Part shown: positions 13,113 through 27,002 of the stretch, piece after piece
How the letters are laid out: each line of letters starts with the position of its first letter
How positions within the stretch are numbered: the stretch's first letter is position 1
From: a virus
Strand: one strand, 5' to 3'
Virus record (IMG/VR): IMGVR_UViG_3300025094_000034
Coordinates: 1-34,229 of that record
Length of the DNA stretch: 34,229 nucleotides
Position numbers and translations under genes: made by a program
Notes under the pieces: model-generated
The model's input: the letters and a program-made list of their open reading frames with translations, nothing else
Database searches by the model: none
What the model was told of the DNA's origin: nothing

Positions 13113-13490
13113 GGGGGCCCCGGGACGGGGCGTAAGCCGGGTTCTGTTTTCCGCGGTCATCTCTCTGGGACCGGTGTCGCCACCGGCCTCAAGCGGCCCA
13201 TCCCGCAGGTTCTGGCGGGCCGGGCAAGCCCTTCCTGCCTACCGGGCCTTGCACCGGGTGGGGTTTGCCGTGCCGCCCCTGTTTCCAGGAGGCGCGGTGG
13301 GCTCTTACCCCACCGTTTCACCCTTGCCCGCACCGGGGGAAGCCCCGGCCGCTGGCGGTCTCTTCTCTGTGGCACTTTCCGTCGGGTTACCCCGCCCAGG
13401 CGTTACCTGGCACCCCGCCCTATGGTGCCCGGACTTTCCTCACCCAGGGGGGTTGGCCCCTGAGCGCGACCGCGCCCCCGTCCCGGGGCA
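13113..13490 (-). ncRNA. rnpB: RNase P RNA, bacterial type A
   Basis: Catalytic RNA of RNase P, which trims the 5' ends of tRNA precursors. On the minus strand it contains the universally conserved GAGGAAAGTCCGGGC near the 5' end (13441-13427) and ACAGAACCCGGCTTA at the 3' end (13147-13133). Between them lie ACGGAAAGTGCCACAGAG, GGGTGAAACGGTGGGGTAAG and GAGAGATGACCGC. The termini (GCCCCGGGACGGGG and CCCCGTCCCGGGGC) pair to form helix P1. All core elements are present, so it appears functional. A -10 TAGAAT lies at 13501-13496 with a poor -35. The GC-rich helices are Thermus-like. This is a host housekeeping gene; finding it between phage modules is unexpected. Exact ends are approximate. Confidence 0.95.
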
Positions 13491-13700
13491 CCCCTATTCT
13501 ACCACAGGCAAAAGCATTGAGGAAATCGCTCACGCTCCAGGACAGAAACCCGCCTGAGCGCCCTCCCGGAGAGGGAAAGACGCTGTGCACAGGAGGGAGG
13601 AAACCCGGCCTGAAAGGCCCAAAAAGGCGGGGGGAGGCCGGGGCTAAGGGGAAGGCCAGGCCACCCCCTTCCCGGGCCTTCCAGGGGGGTTACAGGGCCG

Positions 13701-15233: not shown

Positions 15234-16728
15234 TGTCCTGCCGCTGGGCCCATCTCCCCGCGAGCTCGGAGAGGGTGAGGGCGGCCTCCAGGAGCTGGGC
15301 GAGCTCGGCGAAGGAGATCCCGGGGAAGAGAGCGAGGAGGCGCCGCCTCAGGTCCTCGTACCCCTCGGCCTCCCCGATGGCCTGGAGGAGGGTGGAAAGC
15401 CCGGGCATGGGGGCCTTTTCCAGGAGCCTGTCCCCCAGGCCGTCCACGAAGGCCTGACCCGCCACCAGGCCCCGCTCTTTTCTCTCCTGGGGGGCGAGGA
15501 GGGGGGTGAGGACGGGGCCCTGGGGGTCGGGGGCGGGGACGCCGAACTCCTCCCGGAGCCAGGCCTCGGGGATGGAGAGGCCCATGCCCAGGAGGGTCTG
15601 GAGCACCCGGGCCCGGCTCTCCAGGTCCTTCTCCTCCTCCACCTCGGGCACCACGAAGGGGGCGAGGTCCAGGAACTCGGGGCCGAAGTTGAAGGCCACG
15701 AAGGGCTTGAAGAGGCCCTCCCGGAGGGTCTTGGCCAGGGCGCGGGCGTCGGCCCGGAGGAGGTCTATCCGCACCCGCTCGTGCACCTTGGCCAGGGCGT
15801 AGCTCCCCCCGTCCCCCTCGCTGGAGGTGAGGGTCTGCCCCAGGACCGCCTGGGCCATCTCCCGGTTCACGAGGCGGATCAGGCTCTCGTACACCTGGGG
15901 GCCCTGGCCCTTGGCCGCCTCCAGGATCTGGATCTCCGTGTCCTTGGAGATGACCCCGGCGGCGTCCGCCCCCAAGGAGCGCACCGCCTCCTCCAGCCGC
16001 CGCCGCTCCTCCTCCCCGGCGGCGGGGTCGTACCGACCGATGCGGTAAGGCTGGCCGTAGGTCTCGGCGAAGACCACCCAGTCCTTGAGGGCGTAGTGCT
16101 TGAAGAGGTAGAACCAGGCCAGGCTCCGCATGAGCCCGGCCCGGGTGGGGAGGCCCGAGCGGGCCTTGTAGCGGTGCTCTATGGCCGCTCCGAACGCGAA
16201 GGGTTCCGCCTCCCCCCGCTCCCCTACCAGGAGGAAGCGGTCGTGGGCCTCCTCGTAGGCCAGGGCCCCGGGGTGGACCCAGCGGAACTGGGCGGGCCGC
16301 CAGAGGAGGCCGTCCCACTCCCAGGCCACGGCCACCACGCTCACCCCCTGGGGGATGGCGGAGAGGAGGTCCAGCATCAGGTCCTCCAAGGGGAGGTTCC
16401 ACCACACCTCCTCCAGGGCCCCGAGGACCCGCCTCCCCTGGCGGGAGGCCTCGGCGGGCTCCAGCCGCCAGTCCAGGCCGATGACGGCGAGCTTCCGGGT
16501 CTGGAGGAGGGAGAAGAGGAGGGCGTCCTTCTCCTCCATCTCCAGAAAGAGCTCCGCCTGCTCGGCCAGGTAGCCCTCGGCCCCCTCCCGGAGGATCCGG
16601 GCCAGCCGCTCGGGGGTGAGGCCGCGGGAAGGGTAGGTGGCGAAGGGTCGCCACACCGGCAGGCTTCCCCGGGCCGCCTTGGGGGGCTCCGTGGGGATTG
16701 GGCGTCCGTACTGGTCCAGGATGGGCAT
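15217..16728 (-). CDS. Portal protein, Mu gp29 (DUF935) type (503 aa)
   Basis: Dodecameric gateway for DNA entry and exit at the head vertex. The N-terminal part shows DUF935 features: LDQYGRPI near residue 4, EKDALLFSLLQTRKLAVIGLDW near 66-87, GVSVVAVAWEW near 129-139, and a DWVVFAETYGQPYRIGRYD segment near 219-237. A C-terminal helical region includes VLGQTLTSSEGDGGSYALA, typical of the family. ATG at 16728 overlaps the terminase stop by one base. Order terminase-portal-gpF matches Mu. Confidence 0.92.
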   Translation of the reverse strand: MPILDQYGRPIPTEPPKAARGSLPVWRPFATYPSRGLTPERLARILREGAEGYLAEQAELFLEMEEKDALLFSLLQTRKLAVIGLDWRLEPAEASRQGRRVLGALEEVWWNLPLEDLMLDLLSAIPQGVSVVAVAWEWDGLLWRPAQFRWVHPGALAYEEAHDRFLLVGERGEAEPFAFGAAIEHRYKARSGLPTRAGLMRSLAWFYLFKHYALKDWVVFAETYGQPYRIGRYDPAAGEEERRRLEEAVRSLGADAAGVISKDTEIQILEAAKGQGPQVYESLIRLVNREMAQAVLGQTLTSSEGDGGSYALAKVHERVRIDLLRADARALAKTLREGLFKPFVAFNFGPEFLDLAPFVVPEVEEEKDLESRARVLQTLLGMGLSIPEAWLREEFGVPAPDPQGPVLTPLLAPQERKERGLVAGQAFVDGLGDRLLEKAPMPGLSTLLQAIGEAEGYEDLRRRLLALFPGISFAELAQLLEAALTLSELAGRWAQRQDSGLDG

Positions 16729-18005
16729 CAGAAGGCTCCTTTCCAGCCCGCGAAGGCCCGGCGGAGGACGCTCTTGTACTCCACGGGGCCCCTCGGGTTC
16801 TCGGCGGCGTGGAGGGCCAGGGCCAGGGCCCAGAAGCGGTCGGCGTGGCCCTTCTCCGAGCGCTCGGCGTCGTAGCGCACGTTCCCGGAAGGGGTGACGA
16901 TCCGGCGCACGCTGTGGAGGTCCTCCCGGAGGGCCCGGTCCTCGGGGATGCGCACCTTGCGGTCCTCAAAGAAGAGGCGGAGGCGCTGGGCCAGGTCGGC
17001 CTTGACCTCAGGGGTGAACTTCACCGGCTCCACCTTGTAGCCGAAGGCCCGGCGGGCGTTCTCCGCCAGCATCTCCCCGAGGCCCGTGGCGTCCAAGCAG
17101 GCCCGGCGCACCTGGGGCAGGAGGGCGTGGAGGCGGGCCTCCTGCTGGGCGAAGGGAGCCCGGTGTAGCGCCTCCAGGAGGCGCACCCAGTAGACGTCTC
17201 CCACCCGCTCCAGGACCACGAAGACGGTGAGGTCCCGGTGGCGGCCCACGTCCACCCCCAGGTAGGCCTGGTCGGGGTTCCAGGGGCCCCGGGGGTCCTC
17301 CCGGGCCTCGGCCTCCAGGATGAGGCTCCAGGGCAGGAAGGCCTCCTCGGCGCTCAGGAACTCGCAGAGGTACTCCTGCTGCCAGATGAAGTCGTCCGCC
17401 AGGCCCGCGCGGAGCTCCTCGGGGTCCACGGGCAGGCCCTGGGCCACGGCGTCGTAGATGGTGACCTTGTGGCGGCTCCAGGCGGGCCCGCCCTTCTCCC
17501 AGAGCTCCCAGAACTTCCCCCGGGGGCCGTTGGGGGTGCTCATCACCCGGATCTTGAGGTCGGGCCTCCGGGTGATGATGGGGTACATGGCCGCCCAGAT
17601 GGCCTCGGAGTCCTGGTGGAAGGCGAACTCGTCCAGGACCACGTTCCCCGTGTAGCCGCGGGCGGTGCGGGGGTTGGCGGGGAGGAAGATCAAGCGGGAG
17701 AGGTTGGGCAGGCGGATCTCCAGCTGGGTCACGCTCTCGCCCCCCTCGAAGAAGCGGCTCTCCATGAGGGTGGCCATCTGCCGCATGGCGTCCAGGTGGG
17801 CCTTGGCCTTCTCGGCCAACTCCCGGCTCTGCCTCTCCCCCGCCGAGAGGAGGACCCAGGTGCTCCCCCGGTGCTCCACGGCGTGGAGGGCGGCCTCGAG
17901 GGTGAGGGCGAAGGATTTGCCCGTCTGGCGGGACCAGAGGCCGATCTTGAAGCGGCTCTCGTCCCGGATCCACGCCCGCTGGTAAGGGAGGAGGTCAAAG
18001 CCCAT
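16728..18005 (-). CDS. Terminase large subunit, Mu gp28 type (425 aa)
   Basis: Packaging motor: an ATPase that pumps DNA and a nuclease that cuts it. Walker A is SRQTGKS at residues 25-31, Walker B is VVLDEF at 122-127, and the coupling motif is STP at 156-158. The RNase H-like nuclease has Asp252 (LGVDVGRHRD), Asp305 (CLDATGLG) and Asp389 (HADRFWALALALH). ATG at 18005 is chosen because the family begins just before LLPYQRAWI; it overlaps the small terminase by 11 bp. Confidence 0.93.
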   Translation of the reverse strand: MGFDLLPYQRAWIRDESRFKIGLWSRQTGKSFALTLEAALHAVEHRGSTWVLLSAGERQSRELAEKAKAHLDAMRQMATLMESRFFEGGESVTQLEIRLPNLSRLIFLPANPRTARGYTGNVVLDEFAFHQDSEAIWAAMYPIITRRPDLKIRVMSTPNGPRGKFWELWEKGGPAWSRHKVTIYDAVAQGLPVDPEELRAGLADDFIWQQEYLCEFLSAEEAFLPWSLILEAEAREDPRGPWNPDQAYLGVDVGRHRDLTVFVVLERVGDVYWVRLLEALHRAPFAQQEARLHALLPQVRRACLDATGLGEMLAENARRAFGYKVEPVKFTPEVKADLAQRLRLFFEDRKVRIPEDRALREDLHSVRRIVTPSGNVRYDAERSEKGHADRFWALALALHAAENPRGPVEYKSVLRRAFAGWKGAF

Positions 18006-18534
18006 AGAGGTCCCGCTTGATGGCCTCAATCACCTCAGGCTCAATCTCCCGCACCCGGAGGGCCTTTTCCACCTTCTCCGCCGCCTCCTGCCTGAGGGAG
18101 CGGTCTATCCGCTCCAGGGAGAGGGCCACCCGGGCCGCCTCCAACCCGAGGCGCACCACCTTCTCCGGGTCCACCTCCGCCTCCCCCAGCTCCAGCCCGT
18201 CCAGGTAGCGGAGGGCCTTGTGCACCACGATGTTGGCCAGGGCGGCGGCGTAGGAGAGGCGCTTGCCCGTGGCCTCCTCCACCGCCTCCACCAGGCGCTC
18301 CATCTGCAGCACCTGGTCCAGGGCCGGGGCTAGGTGCCGGGCGTGGCGGTGTAGGCCCGAGGGGGAGGCTTTATACCCTTGGGCCTGGAGCCAGCGGGCG
18401 ATGCCCTCCAGGGTGTAGGGGCGCCCGTCCTCCTCGGTCTCCTCGCCCAGGAGCATGGCGTCTACCCGCTCCCGTACCTCGTCCGGGAGCGCGCAGACCT
18501 TGCAGAGGCGGTGCCTGCGGTAGTGGAGCTTCAC
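17995..18534 (-). CDS. Terminase small subunit candidate, Mu gp27 (DUF3486) type (179 aa)
   Basis: DNA-recognition subunit of the packaging enzyme. The N-terminal half matches the DUF3486 layout: LPDEVRERVDAMLLG, a GIARWLQAQGYKASPSGLHRH helix-turn-helix (about residues 43-63), followed by long helices (ALRYLDGLELGEAEVDPEKV). GTG at 18534 overlaps the previous stop (GTGA). The position directly before the large terminase supports the call. A Cys pair at residues 10 and 13 (CKVC) is unusual and might bind a metal with the nearby His residues. Confidence 0.72.
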   Translation of the reverse strand: MKLHYRRHRLCKVCALPDEVRERVDAMLLGEETEEDGRPYTLEGIARWLQAQGYKASPSGLHRHARHLAPALDQVLQMERLVEAVEEATGKRLSYAAALANIVVHKALRYLDGLELGEAEVDPEKVVRLGLEAARVALSLERIDRSLRQEAAEKVEKALRVREIEPEVIEAIKRDLYGL

Positions 18535-19336: not shown

Positions 19337-19409
19337 CCCCCTGGGGCTTCCCCAGGGGGCACTTTTGGCACTCTAGCCTTATTTTAGCCCTGAGCTTGGT
19401 CCTTGTCTA
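19337..19409 (-). promoter_or_regulatory. Late promoter-hairpin cassette, copy 3 (packaging module)
   Basis: On the minus strand: -35 TAGACA (19409-19404), 17-nt spacer identical to copies 1 and 4, -10 TAAAAT (19386-19381), GTG at 19371, and a perfect 10-bp hairpin CCCCCTGGGG / CCCCAGGGGG with a 3-nt loop (19359-19337). The promoter is embedded in the 3' end of the upstream gene: its -10 contains that gene's TAA stop. Flanking CCAAAAG / CTTTTGG extends the stem. Confidence 0.82.
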
Positions 19410-19836
19410 GCGGGATAACGGCGCAAAGCCGCGTCAGGCGCAGGAAGACCTCCAGGGTGTCCTCCCCTACCCCATCCGCGCGGCGGAAACGGCCTGTGAT
19501 GGCGTGCCAGTAGAGGAGCCTCCGGGCTCGGCCCAGGCCGAGGTAGGCCTCGAGGGCCTGCCTCTCCCCCAGGCTCAGACCCCGGAGGAAGGCCTGGTAG
19601 GTCTCCCGGTAAAGCCTGAGCTCGTGCGGCGGATCCCCGGCGGGGGAACGGGGCACGTAGACCGGGAGAAAGGCGGGGTGGGAAGGCCCCCCGGCGTAGA
19701 CCCGGGGACGGCCCGCCCCCCGGGGGGCCGGGTCCTGAGGAGCGAGCTCCACCCAGCGGGCCTCCCCGTGGGCCACCCGCCAGAGGGCCAGGGCCAGGAA
19801 GTTGGCCCGCCAGAGTTCCAGGTCGCGTTCAGCCAC
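19384..19836 (-). CDS. Hypothetical last gene of the early operon (150 aa)
   Basis: Not recognised. The N-terminal half is Trp/Ala-rich, then a Pro/Gly loop region (residues 35-70). The C-terminal half is helical with RETYQAFLRGLSLGERQALE, then YLGLGRARRLLYWHAITGRF and EVFLRLTRLCAVI. It sits exactly where Mu has its middle/late regulators (Mor, C), and its own C-terminus (DKDQAQG) is encoded by the late promoter spacer. It is therefore a candidate late activator, though I see no classic helix-turn-helix. It overlaps the upstream gene by 8 bp. Confidence 0.6.
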   Translation of the reverse strand: MAERDLELWRANFLALALWRVAHGEARWVELAPQDPAPRGAGRPRVYAGGPSHPAFLPVYVPRSPAGDPPHELRLYRETYQAFLRGLSLGERQALEAYLGLGRARRLLYWHAITGRFRRADGVGEDTLEVFLRLTRLCAVIPLDKDQAQG

Positions 19837-20695
19837 GTTCCGCCCTCCTCAGGGTCCACCCCTCCTCCGAACGGACCACCACCCCGGAGTCGGCCAGGGC
19901 GTTCAGCCGAACGTGGAGGGTGGACTTGGACATCCCCGTTCGGCGGGCCAGCTCGGAGAGGGAAAGTGGGGCGTTCGCCGAACGGAGGACCTGGAGAATG
20001 GCGAGCCCCCGTTCGTCCAGCGAAACCTCCAGGGAGCGTTCGGTCTCCACCTTGCGCTCCTTCAAGTGCAGGCGGGCCTCCCGTTCGGCGGCCCCGTTCG
20101 GCTCCCAGACGGGGGCGTGGAAAGGGGGTTCGGCGTTCGGCCTACCCCGTTCGGCCCCGGGTTCCAGCCGTTCGGCGTTCGGCCCAGGGCGTTCGGCCCC
20201 TTCCTCCAGGCGTTCGGCGTTCAGCCTACCCCGTTCGGCCCCGGGCTCCAGCCGTTCGGCCGCCCTCCGAACGGACCCCTCCCCCTCCCGAACGGCGGCT
20301 CGGGGGCGTTCGGCGGGGGTCAGGGGGTGCCGAACGAGCTCCCCCACCACCTTCCCCACAACCCAGGTCCCCACGGGAACGAAGAGGCTCATGGCCAAGG
20401 TCTCCCAGATGGGAAGCTCGGGGGCCGCCCGGCGCATGGAGAGGGCGTTTCCCATCCACACCAGGAGCAGAGCGGCCAGGGCCCCGCCCGAGGCCCAGGA
20501 GGAGCCCCGGAGGAGGGAGTTGGAGAGGAGGGAGAGAAGGAAGGCCGTGAACTCCAGGCTCCCCGCCAGGCCCCAGGCCAGCCAAGGGGGAAGCTCCCCC
20601 AGGGAAAGGGCGTACCACTGGGCCAGGTGGCCCGCGCTCATGGCCAGGGTGCTCAGATAGGCCAGAATCAGCAGTCCGATCAACGCGTTCCTCAT
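19829..20695 (-). CDS. Membrane-anchored winged-helix protein with internal DNA hexamer array (288 aa)
   Basis: Four hydrophobic segments (about residues 3-20, 36-57, 68-85, 97-118) form an N-terminal membrane domain. Residues 120-225 are a charged, Pro/Gly/Ala/Arg linker with three 14-residue repeats of the form AERLEPGAERGRLN (146-187). Residues 226-285 are a MarR/IclR-like winged helix (LSLSELARRTGMSKSTL, then VRLNALADSGVVVRSEEGW). The predicted protein would tether DNA to the membrane. The domain order recalls actinobacterial DUF2637 proteins, but I cannot confirm it. The linker and winged-helix half carries 20 exact GTTCGG/CCGAAC hexamers. ATG 20695 overlaps the upstream gene. Confidence 0.78.
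   Translation of the reverse strand: MRNALIGLLILAYLSTLAMSAGHLAQWYALSLGELPPWLAWGLAGSLEFTAFLLSLLSNSLLRGSSWASGGALAALLLVWMGNALSMRRAAPELPIWETLAMSLFVPVGTWVVGKVVGELVRHPLTPAERPRAAVREGEGSVRRAAERLEPGAERGRLNAERLEEGAERPGPNAERLEPGAERGRPNAEPPFHAPVWEPNGAAEREARLHLKERKVETERSLEVSLDERGLAILQVLRSANAPLSLSELARRTGMSKSTLHVRLNALADSGVVVRSEEGWTLRRAERG
19867..20335. repeat. Array of 20 GTTCGG/CCGAAC hexamers inside a coding sequence
   Basis: By my count 14 copies of GTTCGG and 6 of CCGAAC on the + strand within 469 bp, often extended to CCGTTCGG or GCGTTCGGC. They occur in all codon phases: GTT CGG (Val-Arg), CGT TCG (Arg-Ser), CCG AAC (Pro-Asn), GCC GAA CGG (Ala-Glu-Arg), CGC CGA ACG (Arg-Arg-Thr). GAA and GTT are otherwise avoided for Glu and Val in neighbouring genes. 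Part of the array coincides with the 42-bp tandem repeats, but copies extend well beyond on both sides. The N-terminal membrane-coding half has none. Confidence 0.9.
20135..20260 (-). repeat. Three 42-bp tandem repeats (14 codons each)
   Basis: Encode residues 146-187 of the membrane-anchored winged-helix protein, units AERLEPGAERGRLN, AERLEEGAERPGPN and AERLEPGAERGRPN. The units are similar at DNA level and each holds several GTTCGG-type hexamers. Confidence 0.85.
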
Positions 20696-20946
20696 AGCTT
20701 CAGCTCCCGTTCCAGCTCCAGGACCAGCTTGAGGACCCGGTAGCGGCCCTCCTCCACCGCCCGAAGGCGCCGGGCCAGGGCCGCCTCCCGGGCCCGAAGG
20801 GCTTCCAGCTCCCGCTCAACCTCCGTCAGCCTGCGCAAAGCCCCCCGAAGGACCTCGCCCGCCCGCTCCACCTCCAAGAAGGCGCCGCGGGAGGCGGCCT
20901 CGTAGGCGTGCATGAGGATGGCGTCCAGGGCCTCCTCGGGGGTCAT
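20692..20946 (-). CDS. Small coiled-coil early protein (84 aa)
   Basis: Helical throughout, beginning MTPEEALDAILMHAYEAASRG, followed by a long heptad-rich coiled coil (LTEVERELEALRAREAALARR) to the end. ATG at 20946 overlaps the previous stop (ATGA). No family recognised. It lies just upstream of the membrane winged-helix gene (4-bp overlap) and may interact with its product. Confidence 0.65.
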   Translation of the reverse strand: MTPEEALDAILMHAYEAASRGAFLEVERAGEVLRGALRRLTEVERELEALRAREAALARRLRAVEEGRYRVLKLVLELERELKL

Positions 20947-21161
20947 GCCACCTCCAACGGCTGCCACATCCAGTAGAGGCGCTCGCCCGAGCGGCCGTAC
21001 CAGACCAGCCCCCCGGGCACCTGGATGTAGGCCTTCAGGAGCCCGACCGGGGGGCAGTAGGGGGTCCCCGCCCCCGCCACGCCGAAGAAGGCGGGGACCC
21101 CCTTCTCGGTCCTGGCCAGGCGGCGCTCCACTTCCTCCACAAAGCGCGTCCAGTCCGTCAT
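20943..21161 (-). CDS. Hypothetical early protein (72 aa)
   Basis: N-terminal helix (MTDWTRFVEEVERRLARTE) followed by a Gly/Pro/aromatic region (FFGVAGAGTPYCPPVG, WYGRSGERLYWMW). Not recognised. ATG at 21161 overlaps the preceding gene by 4 bp. Confidence 0.6.
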   Translation of the reverse strand: MTDWTRFVEEVERRLARTEKGVPAFFGVAGAGTPYCPPVGLLKAYIQVPGGLVWYGRSGERLYWMWQPLEVA

Positions 21162-25070: not shown

Positions 25071-27002
25071 CTATTCCTCCTCGCCCCGGGGCAGCAGGCC
25101 GCGCTCCTTTAGCCACTGCTCCCCCAGGGCGATGGGGTCCAGAACCAGGTCGTCCTCCAGCTCGGCGGCGAGCTCCTCCGCCCCGCGGGCGATCTCCTCC
25201 GGGGAAGGGGCAGGGAGCTCCTGGGCCCGGAGGGTGATGCGCTCCCGCCGGGGCAGGGGGGCGAGGCCGGAGAGGCGCTCCAGCATGTCTTCCAGCCGCA
25301 TGGCGGGGGAAAGCTCCTCCACCAGGCGGCGCGCCTCCTCCTGCAGGGCCCGGATGGCCGCCCGGTCGGCCGCCCGCTTGGCGCGGGCCTCGAGGCTGTC
25401 CGCCCGCAGGGGCTCGGGAAGGAGCTCCCCGAGGACCTTGAGGGTGCCGTCCGGGTTTCGGAGGGCCACCCGCAGGGGCTGGCCCGGGAGGACCTGCACG
25501 TCCAGGACCACCACCTTCTGCCCCTGCCAGGGCAGGAGGCTCCCGTGGCGGGGGTCCAAGTACCAGGTGCGGCCCCGGTACTGCACGGTGCCGTTCCCCC
25601 GCACCACCCGCTCCACCTGGTAGGCCGCGGCCAGGTAGAGGTCTTCCAGGCGGTACTCCGCGAGGCGGTGCCGGGGGACGAAGGCCCGGAAGAGGTCCAG
25701 GCGGCTGAGCCCGTCCTCAAGGGGCTCCCGGTGCCAGGTGCCGAGGAGCCACTGCAGGGCGCGGGCCTTGTACTCCTCCTCCAGGAGGAGGCGGTCGGGG
25801 TAGGGGTCCCGCTCGGGAGGCATCCCCTCCGCCACCCAGCGCCGGGTGTTCTGGAGGAGGCGGCGGAGCTCGGAGGAGTCCCGCTCCGTGGCGTCCGAGC
25901 CCGCGTAGCCGGGGAGCAGGGCCTCAAAAGTCTGGTGGAAGGCCCCGAAGAAGCGCTCCACCTTCCCCCGGGTGTGGGAGACGTGGGGCCGGGAGTAGAC
26001 GAGCTCAATCCCCAGGGTGCGGGCCCAGTGCTCCGACTTCTCTGAGCGGTAGACCTTGCCGTTGTCCCAGTAGATGCGCTCGGGCACGCCCCGGACGTCC
26101 CAGTCAGGGACGAGGGGCGTCTTGTCCTGGGTCATGAGGATGAGGAGCTGGTCCGTGGGGACCTGGCTCTCCTCCCGGCTGAAGACGAGGGAGGGCACCG
26201 CCCCCGAGTAGACGTCCAGGGCCACGTGGATGCGGAGGCGGACCATCCGGTCCTCCTCGGGGAGGTAGACGAAAACGTCGCACCTGGTCATGTCCACCAT
26301 GACCATCTGCATGGGGTACTCGGCCAGGACGTGCCCCGCCCAGGTGCGGGCGAACTCCCGCCTCCCCTCCTCGGAGAGGAGGGCGTAGCGGAAGGCGGGG
26401 TTCTCCTCGGCCTTCCGCAGGATGCGCCGCACCGTGGCCTCGGAGAGCCGGAACAGGGTTTCGGTGGAGTAGGGCCGGTAGAGGAGGAGGCCCGGGTCGT
26501 TGGCCTCCACGATGCGCAGGATCCTCCGGGCGCTCGCCCGGGGGTGGGCGAGCTTGAGACCCACCACGAGCTTCCTCAGCTCCGCGGGCACCCGGTGAGT
26601 TCCCCGGTCCCGCCGAGGGCGCCGTGCATACAGGAGTTGCCCCGCTTCATAGCGGCGGAGGAGCCGGGCCAGGTAGTTGGGCGTGACGCCGAGCCGCTGC
26701 GCCTCCTCCTTGATGAGGTCCCACTTGAGCCCCCGGGGGAGGTCCCGGGCCTCCGCGGCGATCCGGGGGAGGTGGGCCTCGAGGGCGGGCTGGGAGGCGG
26801 AGGAGGCCTCCACGGGCCGGGGTTCAGGGGGGGCCTCCCGCCCCAGGGCCAGAGCCAGGAGGTCGGCGTCCACCAGGGTGCGCCAGGTGCGGCCGTGCTT
26901 CTCCTTGCGGGTGGGAATGCCGTGGCGCTGAATGAGCCTCCACGCCGAAGCGCGCGAAACTCCCAATCTTTCCGCGGCCTCATCTACGGGAAGCCAGGAC
27001 AT
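25071..27002 (-). CDS. MuA-type DDE transposase (643 aa)
   Basis: Catalyses integration and replicative transposition of the phage genome. An N-terminal HTH (PVDEAAERLGVSRASAWRLI, residues 5-24) and a second helical DNA-binding region (about 95-200, GVTPNYLARLLRRYEAGQ) precede the catalytic core. DDE residues are visible: Asp237 (MVDMTRCDVFV), Asp313 (IYWDNGKVY) and Glu349 (HTRGKVERFFGAFH). A beta-barrel (about 490-550) and a C-terminal helical tail (580-643) for MuB contact follow. GAGGAAAG precedes ATG 27002, which overlaps the Ner-like gene by 23 bp. Full length, no broken motifs. Confidence 0.95.
   Translation of the reverse strand: MSWLPVDEAAERLGVSRASAWRLIQRHGIPTRKEKHGRTWRTLVDADLLALALGREAPPEPRPVEASSASQPALEAHLPRIAAEARDLPRGLKWDLIKEEAQRLGVTPNYLARLLRRYEAGQLLYARRPRRDRGTHRVPAELRKLVVGLKLAHPRASARRILRIVEANDPGLLLYRPYSTETLFRLSEATVRRILRKAEENPAFRYALLSEEGRREFARTWAGHVLAEYPMQMVMVDMTRCDVFVYLPEEDRMVRLRIHVALDVYSGAVPSLVFSREESQVPTDQLLILMTQDKTPLVPDWDVRGVPERIYWDNGKVYRSEKSEHWARTLGIELVYSRPHVSHTRGKVERFFGAFHQTFEALLPGYAGSDATERDSSELRRLLQNTRRWVAEGMPPERDPYPDRLLLEEEYKARALQWLLGTWHREPLEDGLSRLDLFRAFVPRHRLAEYRLEDLYLAAAYQVERVVRGNGTVQYRGRTWYLDPRHGSLLPWQGQKVVVLDVQVLPGQPLRVALRNPDGTLKVLGELLPEPLRADSLEARAKRAADRAAIRALQEEARRLVEELSPAMRLEDMLERLSGLAPLPRRERITLRAQELPAPSPEEIARGAEELAAELEDDLVLDPIALGEQWLKERGLLPRGEEE

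Follow-up and report, generated by a model that had tools for sequence, protein, structure and literature searches.

Why should a short stretch of one phage gene carry the same six bases twenty times, and what would read them there? The question arises from the window, a virus record of 34,229 bp that belongs to a Mu-like Thermus phage. GTTCGG and its complement CCGAAC occur 31 times in these 34,229 bp, and an exact count places 20 of them within 19867–20335 (14 GTTCGG and 6 CCGAAC on the plus strand), all 20 inside a single gene on the minus strand (19829–20695). The recount is identical to the figures in the preliminary description of this DNA. A second-order Markov background of the phage gives approximately 0.14–0.19 expected copies per 450 bp, in line with the value of about 0.2 proposed there, and the second-densest 500-bp window of the whole phage contains 2 copies. 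When GTTCAG is allowed, the array comprises 22 sites with a consensus of approximately CGTTCRGC. Six of the 22 are located in the last 225 nt of the gene; as described previously, the sites run past the 42-bp tandem repeats (20128–20260), and they enter the DNA encoding the winged helix (wHTH).

The array gene and its product

The features of the locus and its surroundings are as follows.

16728–18029, minus strand: gene of the terminase large subunit, with which the Mu-like structural genes begin
19384–19836, minus strand: conserved downstream gene, 150 amino acids, no family found
19829–20695, minus strand: gene of a predicted membrane-anchored winged-helix protein, 288 amino acids (P0001), which carries the array
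19838–20023, minus strand: part encoding the winged helix, residues 225–286, the proposed array reader; sites also lie here
20024–20329, minus strand: part encoding the disordered linker, residues 123–224; most sites lie here
20330–20695, minus strand: part encoding four predicted transmembrane helices, residues 1–122
19867–20335, no strand: GTTCGG/CCGAAC array, 20 exact sites (22 with GTTCAG), spacing phased near 10.8 bp
20128–20260, no strand: 42-bp tandem repeats, 3.2 copies, within the array
20335, no strand: edge of the exchangeable cassette towards the membrane domain, nt 360 of the gene
20692–20967, minus strand: small upstream gene, 91 amino acids, sub-threshold family matches only
25071–27002, minus strand: MuA-like transposase

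The recognised central genes of the phage are on the minus strand, with the MuA- and MuB-like transposition genes at 27.0–24.3 kb and the Mu gp27-like, terminase and Mu-type portal genes at 18.8–15.2 kb. A repressor-like HTH gene adjoins MuA. The two genes flanking the array gene showed no match to partition motor ATPase or GTPase families. In the T. brockianus prophage (approximately 34.9 kb), the sole prophage with bounded ends, the array is located about 43% from the left end.

The AF2 model of P0001 is of modest confidence as a whole (mean pLDDT 61.7). It contains four predicted transmembrane helices spanning residues 2–122, a linker (residues 108–224) with pLDDT below 50 that is read as disordered, and a winged helix (residues 225–286) with pLDDT of about 90. 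Pfam searches matched P0001 to HTH_IclR (E = 1.4e-12) and HTH_24. Foldseek matched the wHTH to MarR/IclR/CggR-type wHTHs, none at E ≤ 0.001, and the sequence search for solved structures of this domain gave none. The membrane part matches PHROG 26929 (function unknown, E = 6e-6) and no describing entry among the curated families searched; DUF2637, the family of SpdB-type membrane proteins, is absent from the 25 Pfam matches listed. The 288 residues are accounted for by helices, linker and wHTH, with no match to a RecA-like motor domain, and the families matched are those of wHTHs only, with none of the ParB/Noc family. Among the named phages of INPHARED, the gene has no DNA homologue, and the only protein match is one of the wHTH, to an FtsK-like translocase.

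Codons, reading frames and helical phasing

The number of sites was compared with a synonymous-codon null, in which the protein segment was kept, codons were drawn from the usage of the phage and the maximum for any hexamer was recorded in 400 recodings. The mean maximum was 8.3 and the largest 12, and none of the 400 recodings reached the 20 copies of the window array, which is the outcome of the shuffled-codon comparison that the preliminary description had proposed. In all, nine arrays gave 0 of 400. Weaker results were also obtained: L032 was not significant, L031 was weak and L013 gave p = 0.02, the last being not significant in a stricter version of the null. Codon choice conditional on the protein thus fails to account for the array. 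In eight other genes of the phage, GAA is used 19 times against 272 for GAG, and GTT accounts for 10 of 276 Val codons, as expected from the earlier remark that neighbouring genes shun GAA and GTT. Within the array gene itself, the membrane part has no GAA against 5 GAG, and the remainder has 14 GAA against 12 GAG.

The sites occupy several reading frames, the non-palindromic word is present on both strands, and many peptides lie beneath the sites. In the window these are AER, VR, PN, LN, AEP, TER, RSA, RRT and RSE, a variety that had been pointed out before (for Val-Arg, Arg-Ser, Pro-Asn, Ala-Glu-Arg and Arg-Arg-Thr). The peptides under the sites of the relative L014 are GT, QVP, EVP, PVP, RYQ and WYL. 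In the Meiothermus types, the GGTACC sites, judged from their positions, continue past the end of the gene.

Inter-site distances favour multiples of approximately 10.8 bp in all ten arrays tested. The p values, computed with a null that preserved reading frames and repeated the optimisation, are 0.045 for the window (which may lean on its 21/42-bp tandem), 0.022 for L013, <0.0025 for L030, 0.018 for L006, 0.005 for L008, 0.003 for L010 (based on three site pairs), 0.003 for L012, 0.03 for L014, 0.018 for L033 and <0.0025 for L031; related arrays among them are not independent. Phasing is also present in arrays without a tandem. The layout is not that of head-to-tail (CCGAACG)n heptamers, since 7-bp spacings occur only three times among the 22 sites and both strands are used. 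A protein repeat written in ordinary codons is ruled out by the synonymous-codon nulls together with the same word under unrelated linkers, and tandem duplication or a heptamer microsatellite alone by the site layout, the phasing and a survey of CCGAACG.

Exchange of word and winged helix among relatives

Viral contigs as well as genomes of Thermus and Meiothermus contain homologues, and so do 22 of 50 Thermaceae genomes. Close relatives have a well-conserved membrane domain, nearly constant among phages with different arrays, and their linker and wHTH fall into types, each with its own word. The word is C[C/T]GAAC in the window, L003–L005, L013 and L030; TGGCCA in L006–L010; and GGTACC in L011, L012 and the Meiothermus loci L014, L015 and L033, with GGYACC in L031. 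Counted over linker plus wHTH, the window has GTTCRG 15 + 6 times and neither GGTACC nor TGGCCA, L012 has GGTACC 8 + 1 times and neither of the other words, and L006 has TGGCCA 6 + 5 times, no GTTCRG and one GGTACC. Stray words are otherwise single sites (for example, one GGTACC in L013 and one GTTCRG per segment in L014).

The word follows the winged helix. The window and L006 share 100% identity in the membrane domain and 30% in the wHTH, and their words differ; the same holds for L030 and L012 (100% and 35%). L012 and L014 have the same word, with 76% identity in the membrane domain, 57% in the wHTH and 21% in the linker. The preliminary description had considered the case in which homologues keep the peptide repeats and lose the hexamer. 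The opposite was found: the pairs L012/L014 and L013/L030 keep the word together with a similar wHTH and lose the repeats.

At the DNA level, L012 and L013 are 98% identical up to nt 362 of the gene, cannot be aligned up to nt 786 and are then 96% identical for 3.2 kb. L013 and the G032 prophage show the same exchange pattern from nt 360 to 769. The membrane-side boundary, located at nt 360 in the window, recurs at nt 360–362 in three other phage pairs. The far boundary is at nt 769–787 in those three pairs and is not sharp in the pair of the window and L009. The segment exchanged between near-identical phages is thus approximately 0.4 kb and consists of linker plus wHTH. From these alignments, the array and its putative reader form one exchangeable cassette.

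Because word and wHTH switch together, recognition of the word by the encoded wHTH is the simplest account. The pairing of reader and array is strongly supported by the comparisons, and the gene probably carries binding sites for its own protein, as had been suggested from the window alone. The earlier proposal that selection acts on the DNA is likewise strongly supported, given that the word changes with the wHTH cassette among near-identical phages. Sites for a host factor are disfavoured because near-identical phages bear different words at one place. Restriction sites (GGTACC is that of KpnI and TGGCCA that of BalI) are also disfavoured, as the third word is non-palindromic and the word tracks the encoded wHTH. 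The mixture of two palindromic hexamers with a non-palindromic word is unusual for a single fold and is a point against the best explanation given below. The sites could have settled in the linker, maybe because it is the least sequence-conserved part of the protein. Prophages that are otherwise nearly identical, including two at a single chromosomal site, have exchanged the cassette, which suggests that being different from siblings is selected for, comparable to incompatibility or heteroimmunity.

A scan with no preselected word sought the hexamer with the strongest clustering at any position of a locus, in 20 loci of phage, plasmid or conjugative type. The gene region ranked first in 11 of the 20, with about 1.2 expected (binomial, 5e-9); the loci are partly related, and L076 is borderline with a cluster mostly upstream of the gene. 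Further possible words are ATGACC (L089), GTTCCA (L080), CCGTTC (L088 and L057; the L057 array is not significant in the stricter codon null) and CCATTC (L093, in a tandem repeat). L097 has GGACC 15 times (0 of 200 in the null), and its gene region ranks second in the scan. Arrays are not a feature of every relative, and many divergent relatives showed nothing significant in the tests run. Clusters of three GGTACC sites occur in 7 of the 50 Thermaceae genomes; in G001, G003, G004, G005 and G010 they are found mainly or only in the array gene and on its immediate 3' side. The corresponding search for triple TGGCCA was uninformative, such triples being common by chance.

Relatives are also found on elements other than phages. 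L086–L088 adjoin VirB4/TraG- and VirD4-like genes, a gene for a SpoIIIAA-like or VirB11-like ATPase and a lytic transglycosylase gene, and L094–L100 are copies on Thermus plasmids, most of which are typed MPF_T. The preliminary description had envisaged a phage DNA-anchoring system. For such a putative system, "phage" is too narrow in view of the T4SS elements and plasmids.

Several minor observations were made on the relatives. In the conjugation-type clusters of L086, L087 and L088, the best Pfam match of the VirB11-like neighbour is SpoIIIAA. L093 (8545–9422, identical to L082) is a Meiothermus-type relative whose linker consists of four 78-bp tandem repeats. In Thermus sp. 2.9 (L016/L024/L027), the homologue is frameshifted in a G run and the GGTACC array is intact; a sequence error has been suspected in a prophage gene of this strain (PMC4605624), which was not matched to the array gene here. 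Heptamer clusters of the (CCGAACG)n type with variants are present genome-wide in G008 and G050 (67 and 8 triple matches, respectively). Strong hexamer clusters away from the gene include AAGACT (8 copies at position 6966 of L091) and ATGAGA (11 copies at position 1099 of L087).

Proposed tethering to the membrane and its alternatives

The best explanation of the whole, to which we give a probability of roughly 0.55, is a cognate wHTH–array cassette that tethers its own DNA to the inner membrane. Specifically, P0001 would be an integral membrane protein of four helices, with a cytoplasmic winged helix on a flexible linker that recognises a short word (here, approximately CGTTCRGC). The recognised sites would be packed, mostly on one face of the DNA helix, into the DNA coding for the linker and winged helix themselves, so that reader and address travel as one exchangeable cassette. 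Many membrane-bound copies may bind the array together and thereby hold the DNA of their own element, and not that of a related element, at the inner membrane. While the phage grows, this could serve to anchor, position or retain its DNA; in the relatives, it could do so for plasmid and conjugative DNA. We infer direct binding, membrane topology, tethering and its benefit; the reader–array unit probably tethers the DNA of its own element to the membrane. SpdA2 and Noc, described below, are published parallels in favour of this explanation. Against it, many divergent relatives lack an array that the tests detect, the AF2 model is of modest confidence, integrating Mu-like phages have no evident need of partition, and the benefit of tethering is a guess.

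The main rival is a transcriptional road-block, which we consider unlikely. The wHTH would bind the array in its own operon and block transcription, silencing itself and the downstream late genes; the specificity types would act like heteroimmunity groups, and the attachment to the membrane would serve for sensing a signal or for stronger repression. The array indeed lies in a long co-directional operon just ahead of the terminase and head genes, and the co-switching of reader and sites is explained as well by a road-block as by tethering. However, a separate repressor-like HTH gene is present beside MuA, some 20 sites in one place are far more than needed, the relatives in T4SS elements have a different operon, and the four membrane helices are left unexplained.

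Less probable still is a role in DNA delivery or superinfection, in which the membrane-bound reader would capture element DNA at a site of secretion or entry, either for transfer or for trapping a phage of the same type. In agreement with this, relatives adjoin VirB4, VirD4, VirB11-like and lytic transglycosylase genes, and the closest phage match of the wHTH is the FtsK-like translocase; yet no secretion genes were recognised in the window phage, and a trap for the phage's own type would favour loss of the arrays, which are kept.

It is very unlikely that the sites serve another host or phage protein (for example, in a gyrase-like synapsis) and lie in the gene by chance. Each phage has a single dense locus, roughly mid-genome, but a change of word coincides exactly with a change of the encoded wHTH among near-identical phages, and the position is about 43%. 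The strong gyrase site of Mu is a single gyrase site at the exact genome centre. The array resembles it as a special interior site of a Mu-like genome and differs from it in being a type-specific array off the centre; the central synapsis site proposed earlier, judged from the T. brockianus prophage, and a gyrase-type centre in general do not fit this position.

Least probable is a repeat by-product with no binding function, arising from duplication in tandem, from the spread of a heptamer (CCGAACG) or from repetition at the protein level. The 42-bp tandem, the CCGAACG clusters common in G008 and G050 and the three 7-bp spacings in the window would agree with it, but sites also lie outside the 42-bp copies, use both strands and fall in several frames, unrelated words occupy the corresponding place in other types, the word persists under unrelated linker peptides, and arrays without a tandem are still phased.

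Among known systems, the nearest published case found, within the open-access literature, is SpdA2/sps. SpdA2, from the Streptomyces plasmid pIJ101, has its binding sites within the gene that encodes it and contributes to the stability of the plasmid (PMC4170104). Both are DNA-binding proteins of mobile elements with sites in their own gene (predicted in the case of P0001), and the link of SpdA2 to segregational stability speaks for a stability role. They differ in fold, site, number, diversity and membrane anchoring: SpdA2 is small and soluble with a zinc-finger-like N-terminus, whereas P0001 has four predicted membrane helices and a C-terminal wHTH, and SpdA2 has 1–3 copies of one conserved 12-bp palindrome (CGTCACGTGACG, with no match in the window at up to 2 mismatches), in contrast to 9–22 copies of type-specific words here. 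Noc of Bacillus recruits its own DNA sites (NBS) to the membrane (PMC4331003), a sequence-specific bridge that is predicted from architecture for P0001. Noc is a ParB-family protein with an amphipathic helix and sites scattered over the chromosome; P0001 is an unrelated protein whose putative sites are in its own gene.

Plasmid partition is carried out by ParABS, ParMRC and TubZRC and by single-protein systems such as StbA. The present array shares with these a centromere-like arrangement, a predicted cognate binder and incompatibility-like specificity types; unlike them, it has no recognised motor gene adjoining, it lies inside the gene of its reader, and the reader is a predicted integral membrane protein. 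FtsK gamma/KOPS and TraB/TRS likewise combine a wHTH, short repeated words and membrane helices, but FtsK and TraB have a motor domain, which P0001 lacks. The stoperators of mycobacteriophage L5 are many sites in transcribed phage DNA that are scattered over the genome, bound by a soluble repressor and divided into specificity groups. The sites here form one cluster in the reader's gene, and other 500-bp windows of the window phage have at most 2.

A broader reading, put forward tentatively, is that the array gene is a self-addressed membrane anchor whose own sequence serves as a centromere-like landing array. It may represent a new kind of segregation, anchoring or competition system by which Mu-like phages and, by way of remoter relatives, T4SS elements and plasmids of Thermaceae would hold or move their own DNA at the membrane and stay distinct from siblings; novelty is provisional because the literature check was limited to open-access papers. 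If right, one short gene would combine three roles, as a protein, as an array of binding sites and as a specificity tag, with a DNA-binding protein and its sites evolving together. Several wHTH/word pairs in near-identical backbones would then be a natural panel for specificity change in winged helices. The system would also offer a candidate route by which the DNA of Mu-like phages and of conjugative elements of Thermus reaches the membrane. A cheap test would offer the three wHTH domains (window, L006 and L012 types) the three DNA words (CGTTCGGC, GTGGCCAC and CCGGTACCGG).

The prophages gave some further observations. Those of T. brockianus (L063–L065) and G032 (L066–L068) share a chromosomal place beside mraZ. 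The paper on the genome of T. aquaticus includes a related prophage and reports, for prophage 2 of T. aquaticus Y51MC23 and for Thermus sp. 2.9, the same flanking mraZ and L31 genes; its prophage section makes no mention of the array (PMC4605624). A repeated target site is unexpected for a Mu-like transposase. A repeat element of approximately 200–380 bp is present at 13113–13493 of the window and recurs at each edge of the G032 prophage and close to the right edge of that of T. brockianus; it occurs in both orientations and may belong to the target or be an intergenic repeat of Thermus. Strong hexamer clusters near the left ends of the prophages, GAGACA (8 copies at position 427) in G032 and GGCACA (7 copies at position 208) in T. 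brockianus, are possibly end sites of the transposase.
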